A DNA stretch of 52,545 bases from a virus: the IMG/VR virus record IMGVR_UViG_3300005825_000043, positions 1 through 52,545 of that record; one strand, given 5' to 3'. This document shows, one piece after another, positions 3,130-52,032 of this stretch; the first letter of the stretch is position 1, and the number at the start of each line of letters is the position of its first letter. A model generated the notes under the pieces. The model had not been told where the DNA came from. It saw only the letters and a list, made by a program, of their open reading frames with translations, and ran no database searches. Position numbers and translations under genes: made by a program.

Positions 3130-3247
3130 TATTCCGCGACGGAGGAAACTCGCTCCCTGTCCCCTTTGGCTATTCCGCGACGGGCCATTTCGGTATTCCG
3201 CGACGTCCCTTCGGTATTCCGCGACGTAATTTCGGTATTCCGCGACG
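3130..3247. repeat. Iteron-like array A1 (five copies of TATTCCGCGACG)
   Basis: Exact 12-mers TATTCCGCGACG start at 3130, 3171, 3194, 3215 and 3236. The last three are 21 bp apart (two helical turns) within a slightly longer unit (TTCGGTATTCCGCGACG). The same array recurs at 5993-6067 and is again followed by the GTTACCCGG-type repeats. This architecture resembles iterons bound by a replication initiator or regulator; the binding protein is not identified. Confidence 0.75.
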
Positions 3248-3252
3248 CATTG

Positions 3253-3420
3253 TAATCGTGCCACATTGTTGCCACAATGCCACGTTACAGGCTTGCCACA
3301 TGTTACCCGGCTGCAACATTGTTGCCACAATGCCACGTTACAAGTTTGCCACATGTTACCAGCGTAACACACTGTTACCCGGCTGCAACACCATGTTACC
3401 CGGCTGCAATATTGCATATA
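3253..3420. repeat. Repeat array B1 (GTTACCCGGCTGCAACA / CCACATTGTTGCCACAATG type)
   Basis: Directly after array A1, short units repeat irregularly: TGTTACCCGGCTGCAACA three times, a 30-bp block containing CATTGTTGCCACAATGCCAC twice, and TGCCACATGTTACC twice. CATTGT..ACAATG makes small palindromes. The second copy of this region is at 6071-6225 with the GGAAGCCAC variant of the unit. Non-coding. Confidence 0.65.
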
Positions 3421-3509: not shown

Positions 3510-3525
3510 TGTTTCACGTGGAACG
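3510..3525. promoter_or_regulatory. parS-like site 1 (TGTTTCACGTGGAACG)
   Basis: It matches the universal chromosomal parS consensus TGTTNCACGTGNAACA at all but the last base. It lies just past the stop of the leftward gene 3531-3743. It is one of four such sites within 3.9 kb; see the sites at 5206, 6839 and 7399. Confidence 0.6.
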
Positions 3526-3992: not shown

Positions 3993-4062
3993 ACGGTCCA
4001 ATGAAGCGAAGCGAGGACCCGGAGTCCAACTATGCCCGTGTAACCGAGTCCAGACGTAGCAA
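3993..4062 (+). ncRNA. Putative small RNA R1 (conserved GGTCC...GGACCCGGAGTCC 5' end)
   Basis: Starts a few bases after the -10 box of the rightward arm of M1. GGTCC (3995-3999) can pair with GGACC (4015-4019), and CCGGAGTCCAAC follows. The same 5' sequence appears behind five other promoters of this region, always where no protein gene follows. The 3' end is unknown; transcription would run into the palindromes at 4066-4215. Confidence 0.4.
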
Positions 4063-5776: not shown

Positions 5777-5968
5777 ATGGAAAGCCTGACGCAAAAGATC
5801 AAAATCGCCGGTCGTCGAGTCGCTCCCACTCTGAGGAAAGGCGACCCAGCTAAGTGGGCTGCTTATCAGCGCCTCACCAACTACGAGCAGCGACTGAAAT
5901 GGCGTAAGGCCGTGGGTCATGCTGAATATTGCCGCCTTAGTCGCCTTGCATTTCACGGTTTCTTATAA
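5777..5968 (+). CDS. Hypothetical basic protein, 63 aa
   Basis: ATG at 5777 follows AGCAGGAGACTAGAGTA. Strongly basic (KIKIAGRRVAPTLRKG, then QRLTNYEQRLKWRKAV), probably helical and nucleic-acid binding by charge only. Co-transcribed with the preceding gene. It ends just before iteron array A2. No family recognised. Confidence 0.6.
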   Translation: MESLTQKIKIAGRRVAPTLRKGDPAKWAAYQRLTNYEQRLKWRKAVGHAEYCRLSRLAFHGFL

Positions 5969-5992
5969 GCTTCAGCCCGTCGCGGATTTTGG

Positions 5993-6067
5993 TATTCCGC
6001 GACGGGCATTCGGTATTCCGCGACGGGATTTCGGTATTCCGCGACGGGATTTCGGTATTCCGCGATG
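5993..6067. repeat. Iteron-like array A2 (four 21-bp units)
   Basis: TATTCCGCGACG starts at 5993, 6014 and 6035, and TATTCCGCGATG at 6056: exact 21-bp spacing, with the unit TTCGGTATTCCGCGACGGGA. It duplicates array A1 at 3130-3247 and is again followed at once by a B array. Confidence 0.8.
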
Positions 6068-6070
6068 CAG

Positions 6071-6225
6071 CGGAGCAACAATGTTACTCGGAAGCCACAT
6101 TGTTACCCGGAAGCCACGTTACCCGGGAGCAACAATGTTACCCGGAAGCCACGTTACCCGGAAGCCACGTTACCCGGAAGCCACATTGTGATCCGGAAGC
6201 CACATTGTGATCCGGAAGCCACACC
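6071..6225. repeat. Repeat array B2 (GGAAGCCACATTGTTACCC type)
   Basis: About eight units of 16 or 19 bp: GGAAGCCACATTGTTACCC, GGAAGCCACGTTACCC and, at the right end, GGAAGCCACATTGTGATCC twice. Two GGAGCAACAATGTTAC(C/T)C variants break the series. Lacks open coding sequence with a ribosome site. Paired with A2 just as B1 is paired with A1. Confidence 0.75.
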
Positions 6226-6828: not shown

Positions 6829-6864
6829 TCCGGGGCGGTGTTCCACGTGGAACACCGCCCCGGA
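6829..6864. promoter_or_regulatory. 36-bp perfect palindrome containing parS-like site 3 (TGTTCCACGTGGAACA, 6839-6854)
   Basis: Every base from 6829 to 6864 pairs symmetrically, with CGGGGCGG and CCGCCCCG flanking the 16-mer. The core is an exact match to TGTTNCACGTGNAACA, the ParB binding site of bacterial chromosomes. It lies 7 bp after the stop of 6604-6822, where the leftward RNA R5 would arrive. There is no U tract. Confidence 0.7.
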
Positions 6865-7398: not shown

Positions 7399-7414
7399 TG
7401 TTCCACGTGGAACA
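7399..7414. promoter_or_regulatory. parS-like site 4 (exact TGTTCCACGTGGAACA)
   Basis: Exact consensus match, 43 bp after the stop of 7150-7356. Unlike sites 2 and 3 it is not embedded in a longer palindrome (CCCCCC on the left, CGCCCC on the right), so the 16-mer itself is what is conserved. Confidence 0.7.
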
Positions 7415-10825: not shown

Positions 10826-11332
10826 ATGGAGCATGACTGGTTCATATTAAGGGTCCTATCAGGACAAGATGAAAGCGTTGAGGAAGCGCTGAGAACGCGT
10901 GGCTACAACGTTTATATGCCTTATTTGATTGAGTCACGACGTCATCGAAGACACAAGTGTTTGATAAATAGAGCAGTTCCATTATTTCCAGGGTATTTAT
11001 TTGTATCATTGAATGCACATGGGAACTGGAGAGACCTAAACAGCGTCCGTGGAGTGCTTGGGCCGATAAAATCACAAGGTGATCCTGCATTGATAGAAAG
11101 TGCAGAAATCGAGCAAATAATGGAAGCAGAAGCGCTAGGGCGTTTTGAAAATACAAGAACGGTCCGAATGGGCTTTAAAGTGGGCGACAAAGTATCCTTC
11201 GAGGCATTCGGGGCTGTAGTAACAGCATTCGTGAAGTCTTTCGTAGGAAAGAGTGGTTTCGAGGTATCTGGAGAAGCTGGAATGGGGCATTTCAGTGCTA
11301 CGAAATCATTCGATGAGTTAATTCCAGCATAG
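10826..11332 (+). CDS. NusG/RfaH-like transcription elongation (antitermination) protein, 168 aa
   Basis: Residues 4-90 have the NGN pattern: WFILRVLSGQDESVEEALRT, RGYNVYMP, then RRHRRHKCLINRAVPLFPGY and LFVSL, then GVLGPI. The C-terminal 50 residues contain a KOW-like segment (FKVGDKVSFEAFGAVVTAFV). NusG relatives bind RNA polymerase and either suppress or promote termination. Placed as the first gene of a roughly 28-kb late operon that has a hairpin terminator inside it, it is well suited to act as a phage-specific antiterminator; that role is inference. ATG 10826 is the first possible start. Confidence 0.85.
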   Translation: MEHDWFILRVLSGQDESVEEALRTRGYNVYMPYLIESRRHRRHKCLINRAVPLFPGYLFVSLNAHGNWRDLNSVRGVLGPIKSQGDPALIESAEIEQIMEAEALGRFENTRTVRMGFKVGDKVSFEAFGAVVTAFVKSFVGKSGFEVSGEAGMGHFSATKSFDELIPA

Positions 11333-14127: not shown

Positions 14128-17100
14128 ATGGCTGTCACCGGTTACAAAACTGTCGGCACAGCAGCGAATGCGGCACGGTCTGGGTCTGGTGATGTTTGGG
14201 CAAACCCAGGCAATGCAGTCGCGTCTGACAACAGCTATGCCGAAACAGACCTGAACGATAACCAATGGTCCGATTGGCTCAGGTTAACTAACTTTGGTTT
14301 TACCGCGACGGATATTCCTTCTGGTTCGACCATCGACGGTATTGAAGTTGAGTATGATTGCGTAGGTGAAGATAACCAAATCAAAGATAGCCAACTTTTT
14401 ATTCGTAAATCTTCCGGGCAAGTTGGTACGTCGCAGCATTCCACAACTGCCTGGGGAACATCCGAAACCACAAAAACAAGGGGCGGAGCGACCAACCTAT
14501 GGGGAACGACGTGGGCTGATACAGATATCGTTGGTGTCAGCTCTTTTGGTTTCGATCTATCCGCGCTCAAAGATGGTACTGCAGGCATCAGAAGGCTTGC
14601 TGAAGTCGACACCTTTCGTTGCCGGGTCCATTACACTGTAGGTGTCACAAATTATACCCTTCCTGCAGACGCTGGTTCTTATTCAGTTTCTGGCACGGCA
14701 GTTAATTTAGAGTATGGTCGAGAAGTCGCTGCTGGTGCCGGTTCTTATTCAGTATCTGGGACTGATACCACTTTAACACTTGGGTATACAGTAACAGCTG
14801 ATGCCGGTTCCTATTCAGTTTCTGGTACGAATGCTTCTCTCGAACATGGGTATGAAGTCGCAGCCGGTGCTGGTTCTTATGCACTAACTGGTCAGACTGC
14901 GGCACTAGAATTCGGGTATGAGGTTGCAGCTGGGGCTGGTTCTTATTCGGTTTCTGGCACTGATGCCACTTTAGACTATGCCTCTGGTGGTGACCTGGAT
15001 TTCAGTAGTGTTGTGTTCCTTTGTTCCTTTGACGGGTCAGATACGGCGACATCGGCAACGGATGACAGTAACTCAGCTCATTCCATAACATTCGCTGGTA
15101 ATGCTCAATTAGACACTGCCGACAAAAAGTTTGGCTCAGCCAGCCTTCTGTTAGATGGATCAGCAGATTTTATTTCTTGCGCCGATAACACCGACTGGGA
15201 TTTCGGTTCAGGCGAGTTCACTATTGAGCTTTGGCTAAAGCAAACCACTCACGGCGCGGGTCACATCATCAGTCAGTACGACAGCGGCCAACTTTCATGG
15301 TGGCTGTTCGATGGTGGTGCAGGGAAACTGCGTTTTCGTGCGTCGACTGATGGAACGACTGTTAACTATGACACGGGCAACAGCCCGACTGGTGCCACCG
15401 AAAATGCTTGGAACCATGTCGCCGTTGACAGGGATGCTGCCGGAAAGATTCGCGTTTACATCAACGGCACGATGGTTGACAGTGTCACTGGTGCTACTGG
15501 AACGCTACACAATTCAACTGCGAAAATGCGCATCGGCTCAATTGAAGGCACGCTTGATTGGACCGGGTGGATTGACGAAGTACGTATAACTAAGGGAGTT
15601 GCGCGATACGCTTCTGATAGTGGGTACACGGTTCCGACAGAGGCGTTTCCAAGAGGCACACAGGGAATCAGTCTTGAAGCTGTAGCCGGTTCTTATTCGG
15701 TTTCTGGCACGGCTGCGTCACTTGAATATGGTCGCGTACTTGCAGTCAACGCTGGTTCCTATTCGGTTTCTGGGACTGATGCTTCTCTCGAATATGGGTA
15801 TGAAGTAACTGCAGGTGCCGGTTCCTATTCGGTTTCTGGGACTGATGCTACTTTAGTACTTGGATATGCACTTGCAGTTGATGCCGGTTCTTATTCGGTT
15901 TCTGGGACTGATGCTTCTCTAGAGCTTAATCGCGTGCTTGCAGTTGATGCCGGTTCCTATTCAATTTCTGGTACTGATACCACTTTAATACTTGGATACG
16001 TACTTGCAGCTGGCGCTGGTTCTTATTCGATTTCTGGGACGAATGCTTCTCTAGAGTTCAATCGCGTACTTGCAGCTGACGCCGGTTCCTATTCGATTTC
16101 GGGTACCGATACCACTTTAACACTTGGATATACAGTAACAGCTGACGCCGGTTCTTATTCGGTTTCGGGTACTGACGTCGCTTTAGAATATGGTCGCGTG
16201 CTTGCAGCTGACGCTGGTACATATACTATTTCTGGTACTGACGCTTCTCTCGAATATGGGTATACAGTAACAGCTGATGCCGGTTCCTATTCGATTTCTG
16301 GGGCTGATACCACTTTAACACTTGGGTATACAGTAACAGCTGATGCCGGTTCTTATTCGGTTTCTGGGGCTGACGCCGCTTTAGAATATGGTCGCGTGCT
16401 TGCAGCTGATGCTGGTTCCTATTTGGTTTCTGGGACTGACGTCGCTTTAGAATATGGTCGCGTGCTTGCAGCTGATGCCGGTTCTTACGTTCTAACGGGT
16501 CAAGCCGCATCACTGATATATGGCGCGAATATCGCCATTCTTGCTGAGGCAGGAAGCTACACTATCAGTGGGACTAGTGTAAGTCTAGAACTGAATAGAG
16601 AGGTAACTGCTGGGGTTGGTTCTTACGTACTAACTGGCCAGGATGTCGGCCTTTCAAGGGACCTACCGATTACTGCTGACGCCGGTTCCTATTCGATTTC
16701 TGGGACGAATGCTTCTCTAGAATTCGGGTACTCGGTTACTGCTGACGCTGGTTCTTATTCGGTTTCTGGGACTGATGTAAATGCCGAATTGAATAGAGAG
16801 GTCACTGCTGACGCTGGCTCTTATGCTATAAGTGGTCAAGATGTTTCCATCAATCTTGGCAAGACATTAGCAATTGATGTTGGGTCTTATATTATAAGCG
16901 GACAGGATGCTGCTCTCTATTTAGGTAGAGAAATACCTGCTGAGATTGGGTCTTACATCATAAGCGGACAGGACGCCGCTCTCTATTTAAATAAGACACT
17001 AGAGGTCTTGGCCGGTTCCTATACTATAAATGGCCAGAGTGCTGCTTTAAGTCTTGGTAAAGCGCTGTCGGCCAATGCCGGTTCTTATTCGGTTTCTGGT

Positions 17101-17352
17101 ACAAATGCAGTATTGGCTTATGGTAGAATAATTGATGCTGATAGCGGTTCTTATGTGTTAACTGGAGCAGGTGTAACACTAACTTATACGCCAGCTGTTA
17201 TTGCAAACGAATTCATAAGTTATCTCGATCTTATAGGAACATCCTCGTTACGAACTGATCTGATTGGTGTAAAAATTGATAGGGAGCAGCTTACTGGTGT
17301 AAAGACCGATGTAGAGCGACTAATTGGTGTAATGACTGGTAGAATTGGATAG
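14128..17352 (+). CDS. Large repeat-rich virion/adhesin protein with LamG domain, 1074 aa
   Basis: N-terminal beta domain (residues 1-170), five 22-aa repeats, a LamG/concanavalin A-like lectin domain (about residues 290-505: VVFLCSFDGSDTATSATDDS, FTIELWLKQ, WNHVAVDRDAAGKIRVYING, DWTGWIDEVRITKGVARY), then 23 more repeats and a C-terminal tail with three short LIGVK-type motifs. Repeat consensus: ADAGSYSVSGTDASLEYGR. Such repeats occur in phage fibres and head appendages; LamG domains bind sugars. The position between terL and portal fits a capsid-attached fibre better than a tail fibre (inference). The 66-bp DNA repeats are so alike that copy number should vary between isolates. Confidence 0.8.
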   Translation: MAVTGYKTVGTAANAARSGSGDVWANPGNAVASDNSYAETDLNDNQWSDWLRLTNFGFTATDIPSGSTIDGIEVEYDCVGEDNQIKDSQLFIRKSSGQVGTSQHSTTAWGTSETTKTRGGATNLWGTTWADTDIVGVSSFGFDLSALKDGTAGIRRLAEVDTFRCRVHYTVGVTNYTLPADAGSYSVSGTAVNLEYGREVAAGAGSYSVSGTDTTLTLGYTVTADAGSYSVSGTNASLEHGYEVAAGAGSYALTGQTAALEFGYEVAAGAGSYSVSGTDATLDYASGGDLDFSSVVFLCSFDGSDTATSATDDSNSAHSITFAGNAQLDTADKKFGSASLLLDGSADFISCADNTDWDFGSGEFTIELWLKQTTHGAGHIISQYDSGQLSWWLFDGGAGKLRFRASTDGTTVNYDTGNSPTGATENAWNHVAVDRDAAGKIRVYINGTMVDSVTGATGTLHNSTAKMRIGSIEGTLDWTGWIDEVRITKGVARYASDSGYTVPTEAFPRGTQGISLEAVAGSYSVSGTAASLEYGRVLAVNAGSYSVSGTDASLEYGYEVTAGAGSYSVSGTDATLVLGYALAVDAGSYSVSGTDASLELNRVLAVDAGSYSISGTDTTLILGYVLAAGAGSYSISGTNASLEFNRVLAADAGSYSISGTDTTLTLGYTVTADAGSYSVSGTDVALEYGRVLAADAGTYTISGTDASLEYGYTVTADAGSYSISGADTTLTLGYTVTADAGSYSVSGADAALEYGRVLAADAGSYLVSGTDVALEYGRVLAADAGSYVLTGQAASLIYGANIAILAEAGSYTISGTSVSLELNREVTAGVGSYVLTGQDVGLSRDLPITADAGSYSISGTNASLEFGYSVTADAGSYSVSGTDVNAELNREVTADAGSYAISGQDVSINLGKTLAIDVGSYIISGQDAALYLGREIPAEIGSYIISGQDAALYLNKTLEVLAGSYTINGQSAALSLGKALSANAGSYSVSGTNAVLAYGRIIDADSGSYVLTGAGVTLTYTPAVIANEFISYLDLIGTSSLRTDLIGVKIDREQLTGVKTDVERLIGVMTGRIG

Positions 17353-39234: not shown

Positions 39235-39379
39235 GGGTAAAGATGCTATTAGACATCGCTCCGCCCTCGCCATTTGCGCGACGAAAAATAAGGGATGGGC
39301 GGAACGGGATGCCGATTTGATGCGGTCTGTAGAAGAATTAAGGGAGGCTGTCAGTCAGTCCTCTTATAATAGCCCATAA
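39068..39379 (+). CDS. o-spanin (Rz1-like lipoprotein), 103 aa, overlapping the i-spanin
   Basis: Start ATG 39068. Signal peptide with lipobox LILVACS (Cys at about residue 23), then a Pro-rich segment (VNLPPPPPPPSADLL) and a C-terminal helix. It is out of frame with the i-spanin for 167 bp, as in Rz/Rz1 pairs, but extends past it. The end overlaps the convergent helicase gene by 29 bp. It links the outer membrane to the i-spanin during lysis. Confidence 0.8.
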   Translation: MKPSSPTVLLLPVLLMMLILVACSTSRSMVNLPPPPPPPSADLLTPCPNPRLTGDKGKDAIRHRSALAICATKNKGWAERDADLMRSVEELREAVSQSSYNSP

Positions 39380-40847
39380 TCTTTGCGGCTATTTCTTCTT
39401 TGTATTGTAGAGCGTCGATGATGCGGCGCTCTACTGGACTTGACCAGTAATCTACGATATTAATGGCGGCCATTTGTCCTTCGCCCTGATTTCTTTCTTC
39501 GGATTGGGCGCGGTCGTCTAGCGAATAACTATTCTCGAAATATATAGTGGTTAGGCACGGGTCTTTCTTGGTGCCCATAAGTGTATGACCAAATTTAATT
39601 GCTTTAGATTGACCTATCATCACCGAGCATGCCGGGTCTTCATTGAAACGAAGCTTCTCTTCGTCTGCTGTCCTCCCTTCTTTCTTCATGTGCTTCTCGC
39701 CCCGTATCACGGCGGGATTAAACTTTTTTAGCGCCCTCGTGAGGTAATCGATGGTAGGCGCGTAATGGGCTATGATTATAGTCTTACCAGTGATATAATT
39801 ATCTAGTCGATCTTTCAGGTCGATAAATTTCGGTGTCTTCTCGAATGGGCAGATGTCATTGACGTCTCTGTATTCATCATAGATGAACCCCGAAGAAATC
39901 TGCTGGAGCTTCATATGCTTCGTGATTACTTGATCTACCGTCACGACAGCACCACTGTCCAACCACGTCATAAATTCTTCTTCCATCTCTTTATAGGCTT
40001 TTATTTGTTTTTGCGTCATTTCCAGTTCTATTTGTTCATAATCGGACTCAATAGACGTGCCCCAGTCTGCTCGACGTGCAAAGAAAGTTGAATTGAAAAT
40101 TAGTTTATGTAATCTTTCTTCATTTTTAATTCCTGTGATTTGTCTTCCTTTAAAACCACCCATGATAGCATAAGTATTACGGAACTGGTAGAAGTCCACG
40201 CCGTCTAACTTACGAGCAAATCTTAACTGTGAATACAAGTCAGCCACGCCCTGTGGCGTAGGTTTACCGGTCATAGGGCGCGTCACTGCAGCTTGTTTGC
40301 TTAGTTCAAAACCATTGATAAAAAACAATGACTCCTTATTTTTTATTAATACTGACTCGTCTGCCCCCATATAAGTCCGATCGTCGATCCACTGTGAAAA
40401 TAGCTCGACGTTATCTTTTTGAATTAGTGCCTCATAATTAACAAAAACCATGCCTTCATTAGTAGAATTCATAAAAATAGCAAAGTCTCTCTTTCGAGTA
40501 CTTTCGAATACGAATATAGGGACGTCTATCCCGAAGCGTGCGGCCTCTAAACCCCAAGTGTTCTTATATTTATTTGGCGATAGTACGAACGCCTTATTCA
40601 GGCCAAAGTCCCGTTTGAAAAGCATAAATTCATTAAGTAGTGTTGGCGTTTTGCCGACCCGCATTTCCATCATATGTCCCCAGCCAGCAGCTGGCTGGCC
40701 TGCGTGGGGTAGCCGTCGTGGCACGGGGAGGGCATCCCGTGCGTCTCTGTAGGCATACCCGGTATAGGAGCGCGCCAGCGCCTCTAGCTGCGCCGGACGC
40801 GGCTCTCCTATTAGCAGCCAATCCACCCCCTCGTATTCAGTCTTCAT
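39351..40847 (-). CDS. Snf2/SF2-type DNA helicase, 498 aa
   Basis: Motif I HMMEMRVGKTPTLLNEFML, motif II GADESVLIKN (DES variant of DEAH), then ARRADWGTSIESDYEQIELE. Helicase C domain: TGKTIIIAHYAPTIDYLTRA then LKKF, a region VIRGEKHMKKEGRTADEEKL, and IYFENSYSLDDRAQSEERNQ then GEGQ (motif V/VI, QSEERxxR-like). ATG 40847 overlaps the DatZ stop by 11 bp with GGAG in front; the 19-codon upstream extension lies in datZ. It probably remodels replication or repair intermediates of the modified DNA. Confidence 0.85.
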   Translation of the reverse strand: MKTEYEGVDWLLIGEPRPAQLEALARSYTGYAYRDARDALPVPRRLPHAGQPAAGWGHMMEMRVGKTPTLLNEFMLFKRDFGLNKAFVLSPNKYKNTWGLEAARFGIDVPIFVFESTRKRDFAIFMNSTNEGMVFVNYEALIQKDNVELFSQWIDDRTYMGADESVLIKNKESLFFINGFELSKQAAVTRPMTGKPTPQGVADLYSQLRFARKLDGVDFYQFRNTYAIMGGFKGRQITGIKNEERLHKLIFNSTFFARRADWGTSIESDYEQIELEMTQKQIKAYKEMEEEFMTWLDSGAVVTVDQVITKHMKLQQISSGFIYDEYRDVNDICPFEKTPKFIDLKDRLDNYITGKTIIIAHYAPTIDYLTRALKKFNPAVIRGEKHMKKEGRTADEEKLRFNEDPACSVMIGQSKAIKFGHTLMGTKKDPCLTTIYFENSYSLDDRAQSEERNQGEGQMAAINIVDYWSSPVERRIIDALQYKEEIAAKIMGYYKRTD

Positions 40848-41406
40848 TAGTATACTCCATGCCTGGATGAATGACCGGGTGCATTGAGTCGGTAAATTGT
40901 ACAAGCACTTCTGCAGCGCCCATTTTTGGTATGCTGTTATACCAATTTACTTTTTCCCACGCTCTACCAAAATTGGATATGATGTCCATTTTGATGGTTA
41001 CCAGTGACTTGTTGCCCATCCATTCTTCTTCGATTATAAACAGCAAAGCTTCTAACAGGTCCGCTGCCTTGATGAGGTTCAGTATCTCAAGGTCCTTACA
41101 TCCGCTGCCCAGTTTGTATTTTTCTTTCGAGCTTATCAAAGCAGCTTTGATATCAGTACTTTTTGCTACTGATGGGACGTCGCCCGTGATCGCCTCTTCG
41201 TCGTCATGTTCCATGGCGGTTAGCAACAGATCCCCCGTAGCCACTTTCCCGGCCTGTATGGCACCAGTGGCACGGGCCAGAGTGAGGGATATCCAGCCCA
41301 CGTGGAAACAGTGCTCCGCGACGTTTTGCTTACGTATAGTTGGAATAATGGTCCACCTTGGGACACAGGACAACCGCCGAAGTCTTCTCATTCTTTGGGG
41401 GTCCAT
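40837..41406 (-). CDS. datZ: DatZ: HD-domain dATP triphosphohydrolase, about 189 aa
   Basis: HD superfamily YfbR/DatZ type. Counting from the first possible Met at 41433: RRLSCVPRW at 20-27, NVAEHCFHVGW (His 41), MEHDDEEAITGD (His 76, Asp 77) and IKAADLLEAL (Asp 125) provide the metal ligands. DatZ removes the triphosphate from dATP, which starves the polymerase of A so that Z is used. Start placed at ATG 41406 behind GGGGGC and right after the mazZ stop; 41421 or 41433 are alternatives. The purZ/mazZ neighbours support the specific name. Confidence 0.88.
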   Translation of the reverse strand: MDPQRMRRLRRLSCVPRWTIIPTIRKQNVAEHCFHVGWISLTLARATGAIQAGKVATGDLLLTAMEHDDEEAITGDVPSVAKSTDIKAALISSKEKYKLGSGCKDLEILNLIKAADLLEALLFIIEEEWMGNKSLVTIKMDIISNFGRAWEKVNWYNSIPKMGAAEVLVQFTDSMHPVIHPGMEYTNED

Positions 41407-41407
41407 A

Positions 41408-41695
41408 TTATTTGCCCCCATTTTCTGAAGCATCCCTGATGGCTACATTCGCAATCATCATTGCAAAATTGCTGATATCCGATAGCTCTAGTAATATTTC
41501 TACAGCATTGCCATCGGATATGGCTTTGTCAAGTTCATCTATTTCTTCTTGCAGTAGTTTTCGTAGCTGACTTAAATTTAAATTCTCCCATTTGCCTTTA
41601 TGGGCATTCTTATTTAATTTGTATATCATAGCATCCACGAATGTCTTAATTTCGTTCTCAAGATGTATGATGTCCTCTGGAATGTAGATTTTCAT
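41408..41695 (-). CDS. mazZ: MazZ: MazG-like nucleotide pyrophosphohydrolase, 95 aa
   Basis: Single MazG-like helical domain: LQEEIDELDKAI (Glu 50, 51, 54) and LLELSDISNFAMM (Glu 70, Asp 73) form the EExxE-15-ExxD metal site. In Z-phages MazZ hydrolyses dGTP to dGMP, which feeds PurZ. The ATG at 41695 has GGGAG eight bases upstream. The position between purZ and datZ supports this role over general MazG housecleaning. Confidence 0.87.
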   Translation of the reverse strand: MKIYIPEDIIHLENEIKTFVDAMIYKLNKNAHKGKWENLNLSQLRKLLQEEIDELDKAISDGNAVEILLELSDISNFAMMIANVAIRDASENGGK

Positions 41696-41696
41696 A

Positions 41697-41906
41697 CTAC
41701 AGTCTCCCGGTTAGTATTTCTTCCTTTAGCCACCGTAAAAACATCGAATACATCATGATTTTCGTTGTGGGATTAGAAATCTGTCGCACGTCACGTTCGA
41801 ACATTCGAATAACTTCATGCGACATTAGGTGGCGCTCACTAAGGACCAACTCGTCCGCGATAGTCTTGTATTCGTTGAAACTACGAATGGCGGTGTCGTT
41901 ATCCAT
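41697..41906 (-). CDS. Hypothetical protein, 69 aa, in the Z operon
   Basis: Coupled on the left to mazZ and on the right to purZ (TAATG). Helical (SFNEYKTIADELVLSERHLM, NPTTKIMMYSMFLRWLKEEI) with no known motif. Since it sits between two Z-pathway enzymes it may have a related role, e.g. as a partner or regulator, but this is only position-based. Confidence 0.65.
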   Translation of the reverse strand: MDNDTAIRSFNEYKTIADELVLSERHLMSHEVIRMFERDVRQISNPTTKIMMYSMFLRWLKEEILTGRL

Positions 41907-42997
41907 TATAGCACATGGTCCATTTGATGTATCACCGCGAGATCTTGCGACTTAGGACCATATCCAAGTATGATCGCCTCTGGGTTTTTATCCATTACGA
42001 GGCGGTACTGATCGAGCATATTACGAATAAACACGCCACGCTCCCTTTCCTTCACGTAGTTCATGAAGTTGAGGAAGATAACATCAGGAGAATTGGCGCG
42101 TACTGCCTGCCGAAATTGCTCGTCTGACCAAGTGAACACCCGACGAACTCGTTTTGTCACGGTAGTGTATTCGGGTTCTATGCCCAATTCTTCCCACGTG
42201 ATTTCTTTCTGGTCCAAGTAACATGGCCCAGAATAACCGGTTTCGGTATTGCCTACACGGATCGGATAGGACCGTACAGACAAAATGGATTTTTGGAATG
42301 CCCTGGGAGACATCGAAGCATCAGACAGTGCCTGCGATACTGTGCATTCCCGAGAAGTGCAATAGGGGTAAAACCCTGAGTTGATGCCAAGACTGAAACC
42401 CTGCGAGACTTCGAAAAAACACACTCTATTATACAATAGCGAATGTGCCAAAGAAGCGCCAGAAGTGGCACAATCAGCGTTTATTGATACACTAGTGCCT
42501 ATCACTGCGTCAGCACGACGCTGCAGTTTATTGATCATAGCGGGACCCACGCCCTGACCCGTAGAGGCGACAGCACCGACATTAACCTTATCGGCATTTT
42601 TGTCACCCGAACTGATACGTGCTGCGAACGGGTGTATCAGTACGTTTCGAACGTTACCAAAATGTTCTTCTATTTCTAATTCCAAAATGTCTCGATCGAT
42701 GATGGCCCCGGCATTTAGGAATACCACCGAGTTTGCTTTCATGTTGCCCAGTTTTTTGGATGCTACCGCGAATGTGGGCAGTTGCTTGAGTACAATTTTT
42801 TCGTCGTTGACGTAGCTCGTGTGACCCGAATTTGGACCGGCATTAGACACGATTGCATCGACCCGATCCCCGAAACATTCGGCCATCGCAGCAGCGATTA
42901 CACCTTTTCCGGTGGACCCGTATTGCCCATCGACTAGGACATAGGCACCGGGCTTTGTAAACCAGTCCTTGAGTCCAATTTCTACAGCCTTGTTCAT
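41906..42997 (-). CDS. purZ: PurZ: 2-aminoadenylosuccinate synthetase, 363 aa
   Basis: PurA-fold enzyme. The P-loop reads VDGQYGSTGKG, where bacterial PurA has QWGDEGKG: the catalytic Asp is Ser (residue 28), the hallmark of PurZ. Other PurA-family landmarks: NAGPNSGHT (His 59), TGQGVGPAMINKLQRRAD, SINSGFYPYCTS-like GINSGFYPYCTSRECTVS, YPIRVGNTETGYSGP. It joins aspartate to dGMP using ATP (or dATP); host PurB and kinases complete dZTP. Start ATG 42997 (AAGGAG seven bases away) preferred over 43003. Confidence 0.95.
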   Translation of the reverse strand: MNKAVEIGLKDWFTKPGAYVLVDGQYGSTGKGVIAAAMAECFGDRVDAIVSNAGPNSGHTSYVNDEKIVLKQLPTFAVASKKLGNMKANSVVFLNAGAIIDRDILELEIEEHFGNVRNVLIHPFAARISSGDKNADKVNVGAVASTGQGVGPAMINKLQRRADAVIGTSVSINADCATSGASLAHSLLYNRVCFFEVSQGFSLGINSGFYPYCTSRECTVSQALSDASMSPRAFQKSILSVRSYPIRVGNTETGYSGPCYLDQKEITWEELGIEPEYTTVTKRVRRVFTWSDEQFRQAVRANSPDVIFLNFMNYVKERERGVFIRNMLDQYRLVMDKNPEAIILGYGPKSQDLAVIHQMDHVL

Positions 42998-42999
42998 GA

Positions 43000-43293
43000 T
43001 CATTCTCCTTTGTTTGTTTTGCCGATGCGCTGACGAGTAATTTCTGCATACCCGCTTATGTCTTGCCAGTGATCTTCCAAATCAGGGTCCCCGGCGATGA
43101 TCCTGCCGATTTTGTGGAGGATCATGTCAAGGGCTTCTCTTTGTGTGAGAGCCAATGCGGGTTGTCCTCTACTCCCCCTCCTGCTCAACTCATCATTGAC
43201 TACTGTTTTCAGTCGCTGAGAGCAACGAGCTAAGTCAGTAAAGTCTCCATGAGTGCTACCTCGTTCTTTCAGCACTTCTTCTAGTTCGGTCAT
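43000..43293 (-). CDS. DUF6378-like phage protein, 97 aa
   Basis: LKERGSTHGDFTDLARCSQR, then LTQREALDMILHKIGRIIAG and HWQDISGYAEITRQR give the ERGxxHGDF...EALxxIxxKxxRIxxG...WxDIxGYA pattern of this common phage family. All-helical, perhaps related to MazG-like folds; function unknown. ATGA coupling on both sides, immediately upstream of purZ. Confidence 0.75.
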   Translation of the reverse strand: MTELEEVLKERGSTHGDFTDLARCSQRLKTVVNDELSRRGSRGQPALALTQREALDMILHKIGRIIAGDPDLEDHWQDISGYAEITRQRIGKTNKGE

Positions 43294-43724
43294 CTTTTGT
43301 AAACCCCTTTCAGGGCATAGGCACAGTCCTTCACGTTAAACCCATTTACAGGGTTCCATGGAGATACCCACCATTTGTCCATGTCATTGGACGATAGTCG
43401 CTCCTGATACCAAGGAGCCATAGCTAAGTAGCGCGTCTTGAACTTCCGATATTCCATAATGACGCCTAGTATACAGAACCCACCGGCCTCATGATACATC
43501 TTCAATTCGTGGCGCTGCTTTTCCGTTATGTCCAGTTTTCTATCAAATCTTTCTGTAAGGTCTTTTTCGTATTTGACCTCCATTAGAAATATGCCTATAT
43601 TAGGGAACGATAGCACCAGATCAGGCACGCCGACAGTGTAAGCGGATGACCATTTTTTGCCATAACCGCCTTGCTTTTTGGCTGATTGGATGATTTTAAG
43701 CTGATGATCAGTTTCCTTGACCAT
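43290..43724 (-). CDS. VRR-NUC/PD-(D/E)XK nuclease, 144 aa
   Basis: GVPDLVLSFPNIGIFLMEVK then YEK supplies the PD..ExK site, followed by ITEKQRHELKMYHEAGGFCI then LGVI, the helix that ends VRR-NUC domains. The family includes phage Holliday junction or flap nucleases. ATG 43724 has GGAGG nine bases upstream; the TTG at 43730 is too close to it. Likely recombination/repair role in replication. Confidence 0.8.
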   Translation of the reverse strand: MVKETDHQLKIIQSAKKQGGYGKKWSSAYTVGVPDLVLSFPNIGIFLMEVKYEKDLTERFDRKLDITEKQRHELKMYHEAGGFCILGVIMEYRKFKTRYLAMAPWYQERLSSNDMDKWWVSPWNPVNGFNVKDCAYALKGVYKR

Positions 43725-43938
43725 CTTCAAAGTCCTCCGGTGTTCTCTCGGTGAATTCGCGCATACCTTTTTTCCCCACGATCCACGCCGACGCTGTTAT
43801 TTGTACTTCCAGTGTATCGTGGTAACGGATGATATCTACTTGTGACTTTGGCATCCAGTCAGGAAGATGCCAAAAGTGATCCTGGAATAAAATAGCTCTG
43901 TTGGTGTCAGCCAGAACATAGCCTATGAATTCGCTCAT
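43708..43938 (-). CDS. Hypothetical protein, 76 aa
   Basis: Directly follows the DNA polymerase gene with ATGA overlap. FIGYVLADTNRAILFQDHFW then HLPDWMPKSQV and VQITASAWIVGKKGMREF look like a small alpha/beta domain with strands suited to a beta-sheet. No family recognised. Confidence 0.65.
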   Translation of the reverse strand: MSEFIGYVLADTNRAILFQDHFWHLPDWMPKSQVDIIRYHDTLEVQITASAWIVGKKGMREFTERTPEDFEDGQGN

Positions 43939-45770
43939 TTATCTGCTCCGAAGGTTGCTTCAGCCCAGTTGTCACCCCATCCACTGTCGAGTACAAAGGG
44001 TACGGCCAGATTGAACGGCGGCTTTTGTACCTTTACGGCGCGGTCTAGCATCTCCACTGCTATGGCGCGTCCCTCTGGCGTGGCCGGGTTCTGAAACTCG
44101 AAAGCATCGTGTACTGTCATCAGCAGATGTACAATATCACCGCCTTCTTCGAGCCATTCATCTAACACCAACATGAAGTATTTCAGTATGTCGGCGTTGC
44201 TCCCCTGAATTATCTTTGATACGGCGCGGTAAGCGAACCGTGGTTGCTCCAGCCTTCCGCGACGACCGAGGATAGTCTTAATATACCCTCGTCTGCTGAT
44301 AACCCCTTTGGCCAAATTCTGAAATTCACGCACCTTTGGAAATGCCTCGAACCATTCATTCCACTTCTCAGTGGCCGTATCGATATCCCAGCCCATATGC
44401 ATGGCGAATGTCTTCGGAAACATACCGGTCAAGATGCCCATATTGATGCGCTTAGCTGTCGGATCACGTTCCACACTAAGCATTTCGGATACGACCGCGT
44501 GCATATCCTTGAACGGTACAGAATTGTACCCTTTAAGCAAAGCTGGCTCTTTCGAATAATGAGCAAAGAGTCGGGGTTCACACTGCGAATAATCTGCTTC
44601 TCCGAATTCATACCCCTCGTCTGGGAGGAAAGCCGAACGGAACAACTTAGCAATCTCTTTATCCCTCTTGGGGATTTGTTGTAGATTAGGCTGGGAACAG
44701 GACAGCCGAGCCGGGGTGCCGTAATCGTCGGACTTCAACTGGTTCAAGGACGCGTGGACACGGCCATTGTACACGTGGTTCTCAATCAAGGGAGTAACGA
44801 AAGTATTGTTAAGATTGGTCCACTTTCGTACCGTTACGATGTGTCGCCCTTCTTCGAATGTCTTGAGCCACTTTTCGTCAAATGACGGATTACCCTTCGG
44901 CGTCGTCGGCCAGTCAGTGCGCCCAGCTGCTGTAACATAAGCCTTAACGTTGTTTGGCGATCGAACATTAAAGTCTTCTGGTAGTGCCTGTTGGGCCTGT
45001 TCTACTCGTTCTATAATTTTCTGCTGCAGCTTTTTCAGGTATTCCACGTCGACGCGTATTCCGCGACGTTCCATACGAAACAACGTCCAAATGAGTCGAT
45101 TTTCAATGTCAAAAATGGAATTAAGTTCTTCTTCCTCAATCTTCTTACGCTGAGCCTGAAAAAGCTCCATTGTCGTAACACCGTCGCCTGTGGCATAATC
45201 CACAGCAATTGGATCATTGCCAGATGTTCTCCAATAGTGCTCCATCGAAGACTTAGTAGGTGGGCAATTAAACAGACTTCCAAGGTGATCATACATCCCC
45301 TGCGCCAGTTTCGCCGTAACTCCGCGACGTTGTGCACAGGCATCAAGCGAATAAGACCGGGCGTATTCATCGAGCAGCGCTTCGTTATTCTGCGTACAAG
45401 TTAGACTCCTGCCGAGCAGAATTCCTACATTGGCTGAGAAGTGACAGTCGAATTTCAGATTGTGGCCAATAGTAAGAAGTTTCTTGACCCGTCGTTCCTC
45501 GAACGCCTCTGATAGGGCTTTCTCAAACCAATGAATGACGTAGGGGTCAGTCGCTGACTCTGGAACTTTTACGTTAGGGTCCGGAAGGTTGCCACCGCCG
45601 CCATGACGAGTCGGAACGTATACCATGTCGGCGGCGTCGGTGCCGATGACATAGCCGATAGGAAAGTTTCTCTTCCAGTCCAAGCCACTGCCTTCTGTGT
45701 CATAGCTCAATTCCTTCGCATTTCGTACCATGTTCAGGGCTTGTTCGGCCTTGGTGGCGACGTCCGTCAT
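43935..45770 (-). CDS. dpoZ: Family A DNA polymerase (DpoZ type) with 3'-5' exonuclease, 611 aa
   Basis: DEDDy exonuclease: YDTEGSG (D24, E26), HNLKFDCH (D108), VDYATGD (Y192, D196). Polymerase motif A ADYSQCEPRLFAHYS (D393), motif B DPTAKRINMGILTGM (K440), motif C MTVHDAFEF (D555). No 5'-3' exonuclease domain. Unusual: the O-helix positions equal to E. coli Pol I F762 and Y766 are Met 444 and Thr 448, and the Glu of the usual HDE is Ala 556. Neighbouring purZ, mazZ and datZ point to a DpoZ that copies Z-DNA. Confidence 0.9.
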   Translation of the reverse strand: MTDVATKAEQALNMVRNAKELSYDTEGSGLDWKRNFPIGYVIGTDAADMVYVPTRHGGGGNLPDPNVKVPESATDPYVIHWFEKALSEAFEERRVKKLLTIGHNLKFDCHFSANVGILLGRSLTCTQNNEALLDEYARSYSLDACAQRRGVTAKLAQGMYDHLGSLFNCPPTKSSMEHYWRTSGNDPIAVDYATGDGVTTMELFQAQRKKIEEEELNSIFDIENRLIWTLFRMERRGIRVDVEYLKKLQQKIIERVEQAQQALPEDFNVRSPNNVKAYVTAAGRTDWPTTPKGNPSFDEKWLKTFEEGRHIVTVRKWTNLNNTFVTPLIENHVYNGRVHASLNQLKSDDYGTPARLSCSQPNLQQIPKRDKEIAKLFRSAFLPDEGYEFGEADYSQCEPRLFAHYSKEPALLKGYNSVPFKDMHAVVSEMLSVERDPTAKRINMGILTGMFPKTFAMHMGWDIDTATEKWNEWFEAFPKVREFQNLAKGVISRRGYIKTILGRRGRLEQPRFAYRAVSKIIQGSNADILKYFMLVLDEWLEEGGDIVHLLMTVHDAFEFQNPATPEGRAIAVEMLDRAVKVQKPPFNLAVPFVLDSGWGDNWAEATFGADK

Positions 45771-46208: not shown

Positions 46209-47051
46209 TTAAAAGTCGCTGCTGGAAGCCGGTGCCGGGCGATCTTCGTCGCCCATTGCCGCCGCTTCCTCGTCCTGGACCTTGTAGTTCTGCAGGGCTG
46301 TTTCGAGTTCCTTGGCCTGATTATACAGGGCCTCCGACGCGAAACCGTTGCCGTTGAACTGCCAGTTCTTGAAGTCCTGATTGACAGTGTTCTTGTCGGT
46401 GAAGGATTTCGCCTGGAACACGATGGCCTGCATCGGGCGACCGGCATTCTGGTGGAGCTGGATCTTGTCGTTCAGTCCCTTCTTCGCCTTCTTCACCGCC
46501 GATCGCGTGATCGAGAGGACAGCCGGACCGAATTCGAGATGATCTGGCAACAGCACCAGATATTCGTAAAACAGCGTAGCTGCTGGAGGCGAGTTTTCGT
46601 CGTCGGGGTCATAAGTCCCCCACTGATCGAGGCCAGACTTAATGACGTTCAGATCATCGATAGTCCACGTAACCAGATCCTTGCGGTCCTTCAACTTGAC
46701 CTGCCAAGATCCGAGCCGATCCCACGTCTTGAAGTCGTCGGCACGGGCGAGGATGCCCTGTCCGTCTTCGAGTGGTGCCACGAGCATAAACTTCTTCTTA
46801 CGCGAACACACGACGAAGTTCAATTCGTTGCCAAGTGGCACGTCGAAACCAGTGTGCCAAAACAGACCAGTCTTGGCATTGTCGAATGTCTCACATTCGG
46901 CACTCGTCCCCTGCAGCAGTTTTACGCGGGGAATTACGACGTCGGTGCTGTCGAAATTGTCGACGGAGTTCACCGACTTACCTTCCATCGCCGTCAGATA
47001 TGAGGGCTTGCTGTCCACTACAGCGACTTCATTTTCCTTCTTCGTAGCCAT
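46209..47051 (-). CDS. Putative single-stranded DNA binding protein, 280 aa
   Basis: ATG 47051 behind GGAGA. N terminus with Val/Asp-rich strand region (VVIPRVKLLQGTSAECETFD), beta-strands in the centre (NELNFVVCSRKKKFMLVAPL), a C-terminal helical part and an acidic tail ending EDRPAPASSSDF. A final aromatic after acidic residues is the hallmark of phage SSBs such as T7 gp2.5. Large, abundant-looking gene ahead of a hairpin in the replication operon. Assignment by architecture, not by a strong family match. Confidence 0.55.
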   Translation of the reverse strand: MATKKENEVAVVDSKPSYLTAMEGKSVNSVDNFDSTDVVIPRVKLLQGTSAECETFDNAKTGLFWHTGFDVPLGNELNFVVCSRKKKFMLVAPLEDGQGILARADDFKTWDRLGSWQVKLKDRKDLVTWTIDDLNVIKSGLDQWGTYDPDDENSPPAATLFYEYLVLLPDHLEFGPAVLSITRSAVKKAKKGLNDKIQLHQNAGRPMQAIVFQAKSFTDKNTVNQDFKNWQFNGNGFASEALYNQAKELETALQNYKVQDEEAAAMGDEDRPAPASSSDF

Positions 47052-47115
47052 TTCATCTATTCTCCAGTTGCTGTGTACCAACGCGTTTTACGGCCAGCGC
47101 CACGCCGATCACGGC

Positions 47116-47332: not shown

Positions 47333-47827
47333 TCACCTCGCTTTCGGCGTATATTTGGACGAACCAGTGGTGTAATATGAAGAGAACTTGAAGATGTCGT
47401 CGGGCGCGTCGCGGCCCTGCCCCAGCGTGTAATCCTTGAGGAAGGACGACAGCGTGCCAGCATTGACAGTCTCGGTGATGAGTTCACTGGCACCGTTGCT
47501 CCGCAGCCATTCGAACCCGCGCGATTTGTCGAGAATAGAAGCTGAATATTTGATGACAGGATAGAAGCTGCGACCAAGTTCAGGTATCCGAACTTGATCC
47601 ATGCCGAACTTGTCGATGACCGCTGGCACCAAGAATTTGTCGAATTTATCCTTAACGGCATAGAGTCGCTTACGCTGGTAGTCTAGCGCCTCGTATTCGT
47701 CTTTGATTTTTTGGAAGGCAGAACAGGTTTGGAAGACGTCGCCCTCTTTTTCAGTCACTTCGGCGAGGGCCTCGATTTCTGTGATTTTTTCGGATAGTCC
47801 CGAAACTAAATCCAACATTGTCGGCAT
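47333..47827 (-). CDS. Hypothetical phage protein, 164 aa
   Basis: N-terminal coiled coil (LSEKITEIEALAEVTEKEGD, QKIKDEYEALDYQRKRLYAV) followed by a compact C-terminal part (VRIPELGRSFYPVIKYSASI, then FEWLRSNGASELITETVNAG). This layout (short helical N terminus, then 'xxxFYPxxKxSxSxxDKxxxxxWLRxxGxxELI') occurs in conserved replication-region proteins of phages; the function is not known. Confidence 0.65.
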   Translation of the reverse strand: MPTMLDLVSGLSEKITEIEALAEVTEKEGDVFQTCSAFQKIKDEYEALDYQRKRLYAVKDKFDKFLVPAVIDKFGMDQVRIPELGRSFYPVIKYSASILDKSRGFEWLRSNGASELITETVNAGTLSSFLKDYTLGQGRDAPDDIFKFSSYYTTGSSKYTPKAR

Positions 47828-49626: not shown

Positions 49627-52032
49627 CTAGAAATCCTCACTACTGTAGTCGTTATCAATCCGGGTTTCTTCACCCATTGAAATCACTGACATCATATTTA
49701 CACCAAATTTTTTATTTATGTATGCCAGCAACATACCCAAATCAGGCATTCTGTATAGCCTGACGCGTTTTATTATTTTCGAGTTCTTCCTGTCGTCGTA
49801 AGAATTCACTGTAATTCTTATAACATCATTTAATGACATGCCACGTACTATAAATGAATTTATAATCTGGTACTCATTCAACATATCGGCATTTTTTAAG
49901 TTATTAAGTCTGACGTGTCTGGTGTAATCCTTTACTAACGCTGTCATGCTTACATAGTCTGGCCACCCATCACGATCTATGTGTTTATTCATTCCCTCTT
50001 TTGTAGCATCGTACCAATTGTCGTGACATTCCTCTGCTATCGGGTGTTCTCTGGATACCATCGCCGCCAGCCACGCATCGAACGGGTCCCAACTACGTTG
50101 CACCATTTCAGTCTTAGCCGCAGTCATCAAGGGCGATCGAATAAGCCCTCTGTCGTACTTTAAATCTAGTAACCAACGGTGAATTTTAGACAGGTTTTCT
50201 GTGGTAAGCCACTCTAAGAATGGTATCCAATATTCTTTTTGTTTCACAGCGCCACATTTATAAGGTGGCACCTTTATCACAGTATATCTTCTGTCCTCCA
50301 TGCCGTCTCGAATGTTCATAGCGTCTTCGGTGTCATTAGATGTAAAACAAAACCTAGAGTGATTTGGCTTGAAATAGGAATCTATACCCTTCGGTTCCAC
50401 TCGACGCTCCGGATCTGTAATAAGTGCTTTTAGCTTGTTAGCTATTCCGCGTTGGCGATTGTTAGTAGCTTCATCACATTGTGTAAAAATCTTGTTATCA
50501 AATGCTACGTTGAAATCCTTCGTTATTGACTCCACGTTATTGGTGGTTGCGGCGTGCTGGGCACCGATGATTTTATTTATAATCTGATGCCCTAAGAATG
50601 ACTTACCGGCTCCCTGTTGCCCTACCAGAACCAGAGCGGTGCCACATTTATCTCCCGGATGCTGGAATATGTCAGCAATCCAAGCAATAACCCAATCGTA
50701 TTTTTCTTCGTCTCCATCACAGATAACATTTTTTACATAATCAAGGAATTTATAAATATCATCATCAGATACTGCCCCTTCCCATGGGGCGATTGTGCAC
50801 CCGCACCACTGATTTACTTTTATCCCTTCGCGTGTGTTCACTAGGGGATCTTGTCCCGGTTCGAATGTTATGCCCGCTATTCTGAGAGTGGATGGCATGT
50901 GAAACAGTAGATCGGCCAATAAGCGTTTTTTGCCGCCGACCGAAACGAACCGATGGCCATAGCTATTTATAAACGACTGACGAGACATAAATGGGCGAAC
51001 AGCACCAGCTCCTGCCGCATCCATATCAACAACAACACCGGGACCCTGCCATATAGAAAATCGAGTAGTGAATTCCTCAATAGCGGCAATATCTTGGCTG
51101 TCAGTAAGCAATATATAAAGTTTTCTAAGTACACTATCATCACCAGCTATCTTAGCAATGGTAGTGCCACCTGTAACCGGGACATCCCTTTCGGCTTTAT
51201 CCCATGTTCTTATAAATGTCTTAACTCTAGCCACTTTGTCTGATGGATCGTCTTCGGCTACCTCCATCAATACTTTTAAAAATAAAAGACTGTCGTCCCG
51301 ATCCATACAAAAAACGTTTTGTGCATTTTCCTCGTCTATTAGGCTTTTACCAATAGTGTAAGCTTTATGTAAAAATCCAGATAGGGCCATTACTAAATCA
51401 TTACGCACGCCCTCCATGAACAGGGGAGCTAGGATGGCTATAGCTCCACCTAGTCGGACGGCACGCAGCAGCACCTCCGGGGTAGTCACGGATACAGACG
51501 ATCGAGCGTCAGATATGTTGTGCCATTCATACGGCTCTCCCTCCGGATGGATGGAGCCGGGCAACATCGAATACTCTCCACGGGTTTGTGGTCCGCCTCT
51601 TAATTCTACTTTAGCTTCATCAATTTTCTTGATTGTGTTCAGGATGGGATAATCAGCTGGATCGAAACTTTCTAAACTCTTAAGCGAATATATACGGTGT
51701 GTCTTTGGTCTACTCGGTCTTCCCCATATATGGGAACACTGTGGAAGCAGACGATCCAGCGCCGCCATTAAGTAAGGGGCATCGGAGTCGATGTCGACAT
51801 CCACCAAATTCGAATGTAGGTGGACACCTAGGTTGTCGTCGGACACTGCTAATTCGTTTATCAGTTCATCCGATTGGTGCCTGTTATTCGTCTTTGGGTC
51901 CCAGCCCTTTGAAGGATTTTTTTGGCCCTTTGGAGCCTTAACTGCAAAACCCCCGCAATTTCTTAAAAGTTCTATCGATATTGCGCGCTGATAAGAGAGC
52001 ACACGGTTGTCTTGAGCCGGTTTGTCTGACAT
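49627..52032 (-). CDS. PrimPol (AEP) primase-polymerase fused to SF3/D5 helicase, 801 aa
   Basis: N-terminal primase-polymerase domain (residues about 15-190): GFAVKAPKGQKNPSKGW, NLGVHLHSNLVDVDIDSD (catalytic D-x-D at 78-82), KTHRIYSL and VELRGGPQTRGEYSMLPGS. C-terminal SF3/VirE-like helicase: Walker A VLVGQQGAGKSFLGHQ (about 468-483), Walker B IFTQCDEAT (515-523), sensor RFCFTSNDTED, arginine-rich MEDRRYTVIKVP. The last 130 residues form a DNA-binding extension. It primes and unwinds phage DNA. First gene of the replication operon behind the promoter at 52168. Confidence 0.9.
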   Translation of the reverse strand: MSDKPAQDNRVLSYQRAISIELLRNCGGFAVKAPKGQKNPSKGWDPKTNNRHQSDELINELAVSDDNLGVHLHSNLVDVDIDSDAPYLMAALDRLLPQCSHIWGRPSRPKTHRIYSLKSLESFDPADYPILNTIKKIDEAKVELRGGPQTRGEYSMLPGSIHPEGEPYEWHNISDARSSVSVTTPEVLLRAVRLGGAIAILAPLFMEGVRNDLVMALSGFLHKAYTIGKSLIDEENAQNVFCMDRDDSLLFLKVLMEVAEDDPSDKVARVKTFIRTWDKAERDVPVTGGTTIAKIAGDDSVLRKLYILLTDSQDIAAIEEFTTRFSIWQGPGVVVDMDAAGAGAVRPFMSRQSFINSYGHRFVSVGGKKRLLADLLFHMPSTLRIAGITFEPGQDPLVNTREGIKVNQWCGCTIAPWEGAVSDDDIYKFLDYVKNVICDGDEEKYDWVIAWIADIFQHPGDKCGTALVLVGQQGAGKSFLGHQIINKIIGAQHAATTNNVESITKDFNVAFDNKIFTQCDEATNNRQRGIANKLKALITDPERRVEPKGIDSYFKPNHSRFCFTSNDTEDAMNIRDGMEDRRYTVIKVPPYKCGAVKQKEYWIPFLEWLTTENLSKIHRWLLDLKYDRGLIRSPLMTAAKTEMVQRSWDPFDAWLAAMVSREHPIAEECHDNWYDATKEGMNKHIDRDGWPDYVSMTALVKDYTRHVRLNNLKNADMLNEYQIINSFIVRGMSLNDVIRITVNSYDDRKNSKIIKRVRLYRMPDLGMLLAYINKKFGVNMMSVISMGEETRIDNDYSSEDF

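Follow-up and report, generated by a model that had tools for sequence, protein, structure and literature searches.

A predicted 2-aminoadenine genome operon with a variant family A polymerase in a virus of the OH-type branch

Known systems and the OH-type branch

Several described phage systems resemble the one analysed here, which is predicted to place 2-aminoadenine (Z) in DNA and lies in an IMG/VR virus record of 52,545 bases (IMGVR_UViG_3300005825_000043; the whole stretch is called the window). Cyanophage S-2L carries purZ, mazZ and datZ as one coupled row, as the window does, and the catalytic residues agree, whereas its MazZ is of the MazZ-1 type and its sole polymerase is an unspecific PrimPol (PMC8065100, PMC8342488). 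E. coli given the three S-2L genes together acquires Z in its DNA (PMC8342488). Phage phiVC8 has PurZ, MazZ-2 and DatZ in a row with PolA and a primase near, and shares with the window a Val at the site of S-2L DatZ P79. It differs in its DpoZ, which belongs to a different polymerase clade and carries a helix-O Phe and an insertion (insertion 2), and no Snf2 gene lies within the phiVC8 stretch examined, whereas the window has one. The PurZ0 phages (Gordonia Ghobes, Arthrobacter Wayne type) have a PurZ homologue with a P-loop Ser, and the Arthrobacter and Microbacterium relatives have their own PolA, both as in the window. Unlike the window, PurZ0 phages have DutZ, DmtZ or DUF5664 in place of DatZ and MazZ (PMC12884076); a search of the window for dUTPase and DUF5664 found neither.

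The layout of the window is that of Ochrobactrum phage vB_OspP_OH (NC_070933, Wolominvirus; OH below), a member of the published Z-phage set (PMC8342488). Eleven genes stand in the same order in both: PrimPol, Gam-like, gp26, DpoZ, a small protein, nuclease, DUF6378-like, PurZ, MazZ-2, DatZ and Snf2 helicase. The system itself is already known, as the first-pass annotation had said, and the window adds a new virus to a known, little-studied branch. Identity between OH and the window is 47.8% for PurZ, 42.6% for the polymerase and 42.9% for MazZ. OH is a cultured phage with a podovirus virion, whereas the window has siphovirus-type tail genes; OH has a private 90-aa gene between mazZ and datZ, and the extra gene of the window, of 69 aa, separates purZ from mazZ. 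In the literature we found no base analysis of any OH-type phage.

The OH-type branch is large and mostly uncultured. A scan of IMG/VR with the PurZ alignment found 284 relatives, and nearly all of the 80 retained for study carry the window's block as far as the contig extends (PrimPol, Gam-like, Pam3-gp34-like, DpoZ, orf76, nuclease, DUF6378, PurZ, MazZ, optional DatZ, Snf2). A second scan, made with the polymerase, added 73 loci, with PurZ beside the polymerase in 68; four of the remaining five stop 1.5 kb or less past the polymerase gene, and the last one (L124) is described below. The arrangement in the window is not unique. PrimPol, the Snf2 helicase and the nuclease are the usual company of these genes in the OH-type clade.

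The replication operon and its nucleotide enzymes

The plus strand of the window carries siphovirus-type structural genes (terminase, portal, tape measure, J-like tail tip). The replication operon is on the minus strand and runs from about 52.0 to 39.35 kb. Its genes are listed in order of transcription under their predicted functions; small genes follow PrimPol/SF3.

49627..52032, minus: PrimPol + SF3/VapE-like helicase, 801 aa, heading the replication block (Pfam Prim-Pol 2.9e-9, DUF5906 6.3e-20; 22% to OH gp22)
47333..47827, minus: Pam3 gp33-like protein (DUF7307; PF23984 2.2e-18; 34% to OH gp24, annotated as a Gam-like nuclease inhibitor)
46209..47081, minus: Pam3 gp34-like protein, a conserved block member (PF23977 2.2e-32; 38% to OH gp26)
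43935..45770, minus: family A DNA polymerase with 3'-5' exonuclease, DpoZ-like, OH-type (NF038380 2.8e-96; 42.6% to OH gp28)
43708..43938, minus: orf76, conserved small protein between polymerase and nuclease (family in 71 loci)
43290..43730, minus: VRR/PD-(D/E)XK-type nuclease (PHROG endonuclease 3.4e-7; family in 86 loci)
43000..43293, minus: orf97, DUF6378-like, all-helical (DUF6378 4.3e-5, below cut-off)
41906..43003, minus: PurZ, 2-amino-deoxyadenylosuccinate synthetase, Ser30 in the P-loop, NSGH motif (NF038379 5.8e-68)
41697..41906, minus: orf69, 69 aa, private to the present virus (no family match)
41408..41695, minus: MazZ, MazZ-2 type (d)GTP pyrophosphohydrolase (PRA-PH 2e-5; 43% to OH gp33)
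40837..41406, minus: DatZ, HD-type dATP triphosphohydrolase, 189 aa (PF12917 3.9e-18)
39351..40847, minus: Snf2-type helicase, 498 aa, last operon gene (PHROG DNA helicase 4.9e-61; 36.5% to OH gp36)

From purZ to the helicase gene, neighbouring genes abut or overlap. The purZ stop shares bases with the next ATG (TAATG), orf69 and mazZ are 1 nt apart, and datZ overlaps the helicase gene. The purZ, mazZ and datZ genes share one orientation and are coupled, with orf69 sitting between purZ and mazZ, and the open reading frames bear out the earlier description of one coupled operon for PurZ, MazZ, DatZ and a DpoZ-type polymerase. Two starts were revised: datZ most likely begins at 41406 (MDPQRM) instead of 41433, and the helicase gene probably at 40847 instead of 40904. 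The top promoter-like sites on the minus strand, picked by consensus match only, are 52196-52168 and 48456-48428.

The PurZ model (NF038379) outscores all PurA models on the window PurZ, the archaeal PurA model giving 5.5e-41, and it is the top model although its score of 229 bits is below the curated cut-off of 300. Against the PDB, the protein matches the PurZ structures of phiVC8 and S-2L first. The P-loop reads GQYGSTGKG against WGDEGKG in E. coli PurA, so that Ser30 occupies the place of the catalytic Asp, as the first-pass annotation had noticed, and most residues of the S-2L PurZ dGMP pocket are retained. In the base pocket, OH-type PurZ has NSGH (62 rows of the PurZ tree) in place of the NAGH found in E. 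coli PurA and in the S-2L and phiVC8 enzymes. A phylogeny had been proposed as a check on PurZ. In a quick tree of 85 sequences, the window falls in the OH-type clade on the phiVC8/S-2L PurZ side, apart from PurZ0 and far from housekeeping PurA of E. coli; support is moderate, with SH-aLRT values of 83-91 for the branches that divide these groups and of 97 for the OH-type clade itself, and the outgroup branches are long.

MazZ is of the MazZ-2 kind, and its gene lies between purZ and datZ, an interval that also holds orf69. Its EExxE/ExxD motif, reported earlier, is confirmed by the four acidic metal ligands E51, E54, E70 and D73, which do not vary across 25 relatives. The AF2 model, helical and MazG-like, has a pLDDT of 93.5, and the nearest folds are MazG-related with weak Foldseek E values of 0.06-0.13.

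DatZ matches PF12917 and the PHROG 'dATP triphosphohydrolase' (3.3e-20). The metal ligands named in the first annotation, H41, H76, D77 and D125, align with S-2L H34, H66, D67 and D119. The protein retains R26, W27, I29, H41, H76, D77, E80, D85, K91, K122 and D125, and with them the two-metal HD site of S-2L, the phosphate-binding residues, K81/K116 and the W20/I22 specificity pair. This Trp/Ile pair excludes ribose and 2-amino purines in S-2L DatZ (PMC8065100). The sole change among the residues compared is Val at the P79 site. Similarity of DatZ is poor past residue 130, which counts against a Z reading.

Two accessory genes were considered for a part in the Z system and rejected. The 69-aa gene, described earlier as uncharacterised, has no match in Pfam, NCBIfam, PHROG-type profiles or phage records; it occurs only in the window and a second copy (L003) and is ruled out as private to the present virus. 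The orf97 family, DUF6378, is found in 236 phage records and is frequent in phages outside the Z group, which rules it out as a Z-specific enzyme; its model (pLDDT 75) has no PDB fold match.

The polymerase and its helix-O site

The DpoZ model fits the polymerase better than generic Pol I (1.7e-74) and is the top model, although at 323 bits it stays below the curated cut-off of 500. The first-pass annotation was right in calling the protein DpoZ-type, but it did not tell it apart from the phiVC8-like DpoZ clade, outside which the OH-type polymerases form a clade of their own (SH-aLRT 100). We do not claim a separate origin for them, because an AU test does not reject a single clade of OH-type and phiVC8-like DpoZ against other PolA (p 0.78); a third independent DpoZ origin is unsupported.

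Insertion 2 of phiVC8 DpoZ, at helix O, is absent from the window and from OH-type polymerases. Helix O of the window reads KRINMGILTGM. Thr448 stands at the site of E. coli Tyr766, which is F459 in phiVC8 and Tyr in other PolA, and Met444 stands at the phiVC8 L455 site. Both published DpoZ groups have Phe at the helix-O site (PMC8599892), the window Thr and OH Ser. The scores of PurZ and DpoZ below the NCBIfam cut-offs, and a polymerase with neither insertion 2 nor the Phe of both characterised DpoZ groups, count against a Z reading.

Among 134 OH-type sequences from PurZ-linked blocks, which are related to one another and include some contigs counted twice from different scans, one outlier (L105) and a few short contigs ending before PurZ, the site is Thr in 126, Ser in 4, Asn in 2 and Tyr in 2 (L130, L160), so that Thr, Ser or Asn occurs in 132 of 134; L124 and L153 were left out of this count. 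Control phage PolA loci without PurZ have Tyr in 53 of 53, in a comparison set that excludes the polymerase of phiJL001 (A-DNA, close to phiVC8 DpoZ). Tyr is also found in L124, a single contig of 4.7 kb with the order polymerase, nuclease, helicase and no purZ between nuclease and helicase.

The amino group of Z lies in the same place as N2 of guanine. Simulations of Bacillus Pol I describe a Ser at the helix-O site that keeps a hydrogen bond to the N2 amino group of the template guanine during most of the simulated time (PMC12756729). In Klenow, Y766S opens the active site (PMC3121766). Direct recognition of Z by Thr, Ser or Asn is a reasonable hypothesis because of that hydrogen bond and the shared position of the amino group. 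We tentatively propose that OH-type polymerases might recognise Z directly at the small polar residue, which would accept and hydrogen-bond the 2-amino group of the base, an idea rather less probable than not. The two Z-linked loci that retain Tyr argue against it. A single residue does not account for the choice of Z by phiVC8 DpoZ (PMC8599892).

Probable Z DNA and the alternative readings

MazZ is followed directly by the helicase gene, without DatZ, in 30 loci, mostly with no space for it. Mapped on the PurZ tree, presence and absence of DatZ require at least 8 changes, or more safely 7, as one locus scored DatZ-less (L062) has DatZ in a longer frame. These patterns suggest that DatZ is optional within the OH-type clade and dispensable in many members. 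A substitute dATPase was sought in eight DatZ-less contigs of 37-45 kb, which may be incomplete, and none was found among YfbR-like, HD_3, DUF5664 and dUTPase genes.

It is very probable that the operon makes the DNA of the present phage with Z for adenine, as had been proposed. The direct support is gene content, order, coupling, intact residues and kinship with known Z-phage enzymes. Four linked enzymes keep their catalytic and specificity residues, PurZ falls on the Z side of its tree, and the block is common to a published Z-phage; we infer the activity of each enzyme and the presence of Z in virion DNA from homologues. The same genes could instead be ordinary purine salvage, with a phage PurA boosting AMP beside MazG-like and YfbR-like housekeeping hydrolases, which is how the OH genome paper took their homologues (PMC7139368). 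This is most improbable, since the PurA catalytic Asp is replaced by Ser and the set is co-inherited with a polymerase. The better fit of the PurZ model, the separation from PurA in the tree and the retained Trp and Ile of DatZ also speak against salvage. A little less far-fetched, though still quite unlikely, is partial substitution, in which Z is made, the polymerase discriminates weakly and virion DNA holds both A and Z. A polymerase that has neither insertion 2 nor the residue reported as the DpoZ signature, and relatives that have the same polymerase type and lack DatZ, would fit such a mixture. Against it, DatZ is present in the window with all its dATPase residues, and in S-2L, where the polymerase is unspecific, DatZ ensures Z by removing dATP (PMC8065100).

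Under full replacement of adenine by Z, MazZ would convert dGTP to dGMP, and PurZ would join dGMP to aspartate, with ATP or dATP, yielding a succinylated dZMP precursor that the lyase and kinases of the host would turn into dZTP. DatZ would turn dATP into deoxyadenosine and so make A scarce. The operon-encoded family A polymerase would then replicate the genome from dZTP, while the PrimPol/SF3 protein would make primers and open the duplex, helped by the nuclease and the Snf2 helicase. Less certain than the rest of this scheme is the part of Thr448, which may leave space for the extra amino group of Z and might hydrogen-bond it.

Restriction sites give a suggestive but non-specific picture. 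In the window, 6-bp palindromes built from G and C alone are depleted (31 against 100 expected), whereas those with A/T are not (0.95). The G/C depletion is not specific to Z DNA, since several non-Z phages are alike (Ab18 0.05, POA1180 0.38) and S-2L, a Z phage, has no depletion (1.00). The 21 Z phages compared avoid A/T-containing palindromes less strongly than the 17 other phages do (p 5e-5; p 0.001 with one phage per hand-picked lineage), in an exploratory test picked after looking and with hosts unmatched.

The first-pass annotation had also suggested that PrimPol/SF3, Snf2, the nuclease and the 69-aa gene may form a distinct version of the system, which is right only in part. The real distinction lies in the polymerase; PrimPol, Snf2 and nuclease are standard for the clade, and the 69-aa gene belongs to this virus alone. 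The OH-type clade suggests that Z systems are common among uncultured phages. At the helix-O site the branch provides a natural experiment, with Tyr in ordinary PolA, Phe in the studied DpoZ groups and Thr, Ser or Asn here. This variant makes a specific mechanism for telling Z from A testable. Direct recognition, if true, would be unlike backtracking, the model put forward for phiVC8 DpoZ, and would allow some relatives to do without DatZ.

Repeats and other proteins of the window

The left part of the window holds several families of repeats.
3510-3525, 6839-6854, 7399-7414: parS-like palindrome TGTTCCACGTGGAACA
3955, 4351, 6541, 7071, 7603, 8935: promoter-like unit of 35 bases, six copies
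3166-3268, 5965-6203: arrays of TTCGGTATTCCGCGACG and GTTACCCGGAAGCCAC
near 4061, 4119, 4196, 9303, 9341: repeated palindrome GTGTAATTACAC

The three parS-like sites (two exact, one with two mismatches) compare with an expected 0.02, and such palindromes may serve plasmid-like upkeep or be bound by ParB of the host. Each promoter-like unit consists of TTGACA, about 17 nt and TGGTAxxAT, and the region that holds the six copies is populated by short genes.

Two proteins are encoded further to the right.
10826-11332: NusG-like protein (PF02357, 1.2e-17)
14128-17352: virion-associated protein of 1074 aa with a Laminin_G_3 domain

The NusG-like protein, whose gene precedes the structural genes, is possibly a phage antiterminator. 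The Laminin_G_3 protein contains more than 12 repeats of 66 bases (22 aa).

Synthetase homologues in other loci

Two other loci encode synthetases of this family.
L018, 2025-3368: adenylosuccinate synthetase homologue of 447 aa (Flavobacterium phage MaF61)
L005, 1211-2248: divergent PurZ with the P-loop WGSCGKG

The homologue in MaF61, a 168-kb phage, carries Ser in its P-loop (FGSSGKG); its gene adjoins the terminase and not a Z-cluster. The L005 gene lies beside a kinase-like and a dUTPase-like gene, a layout similar to that of PurZ0 and DutZ.

OH-type relatives and their MazZ

A contig with an OH-type Z-block (L102) is binned under a Gottesmanbacteria genome and is possibly a misbinned phage. 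Four loci that lack DatZ (L044, L051, L064 and L080) have in common a MazZ variant in which HKxTPT is followed by an EFE motif and ANFAFLAY, whereas MazZ of the window has the HKGKWE form. The variant enzyme of these DatZ-less relatives may have an altered substrate range.
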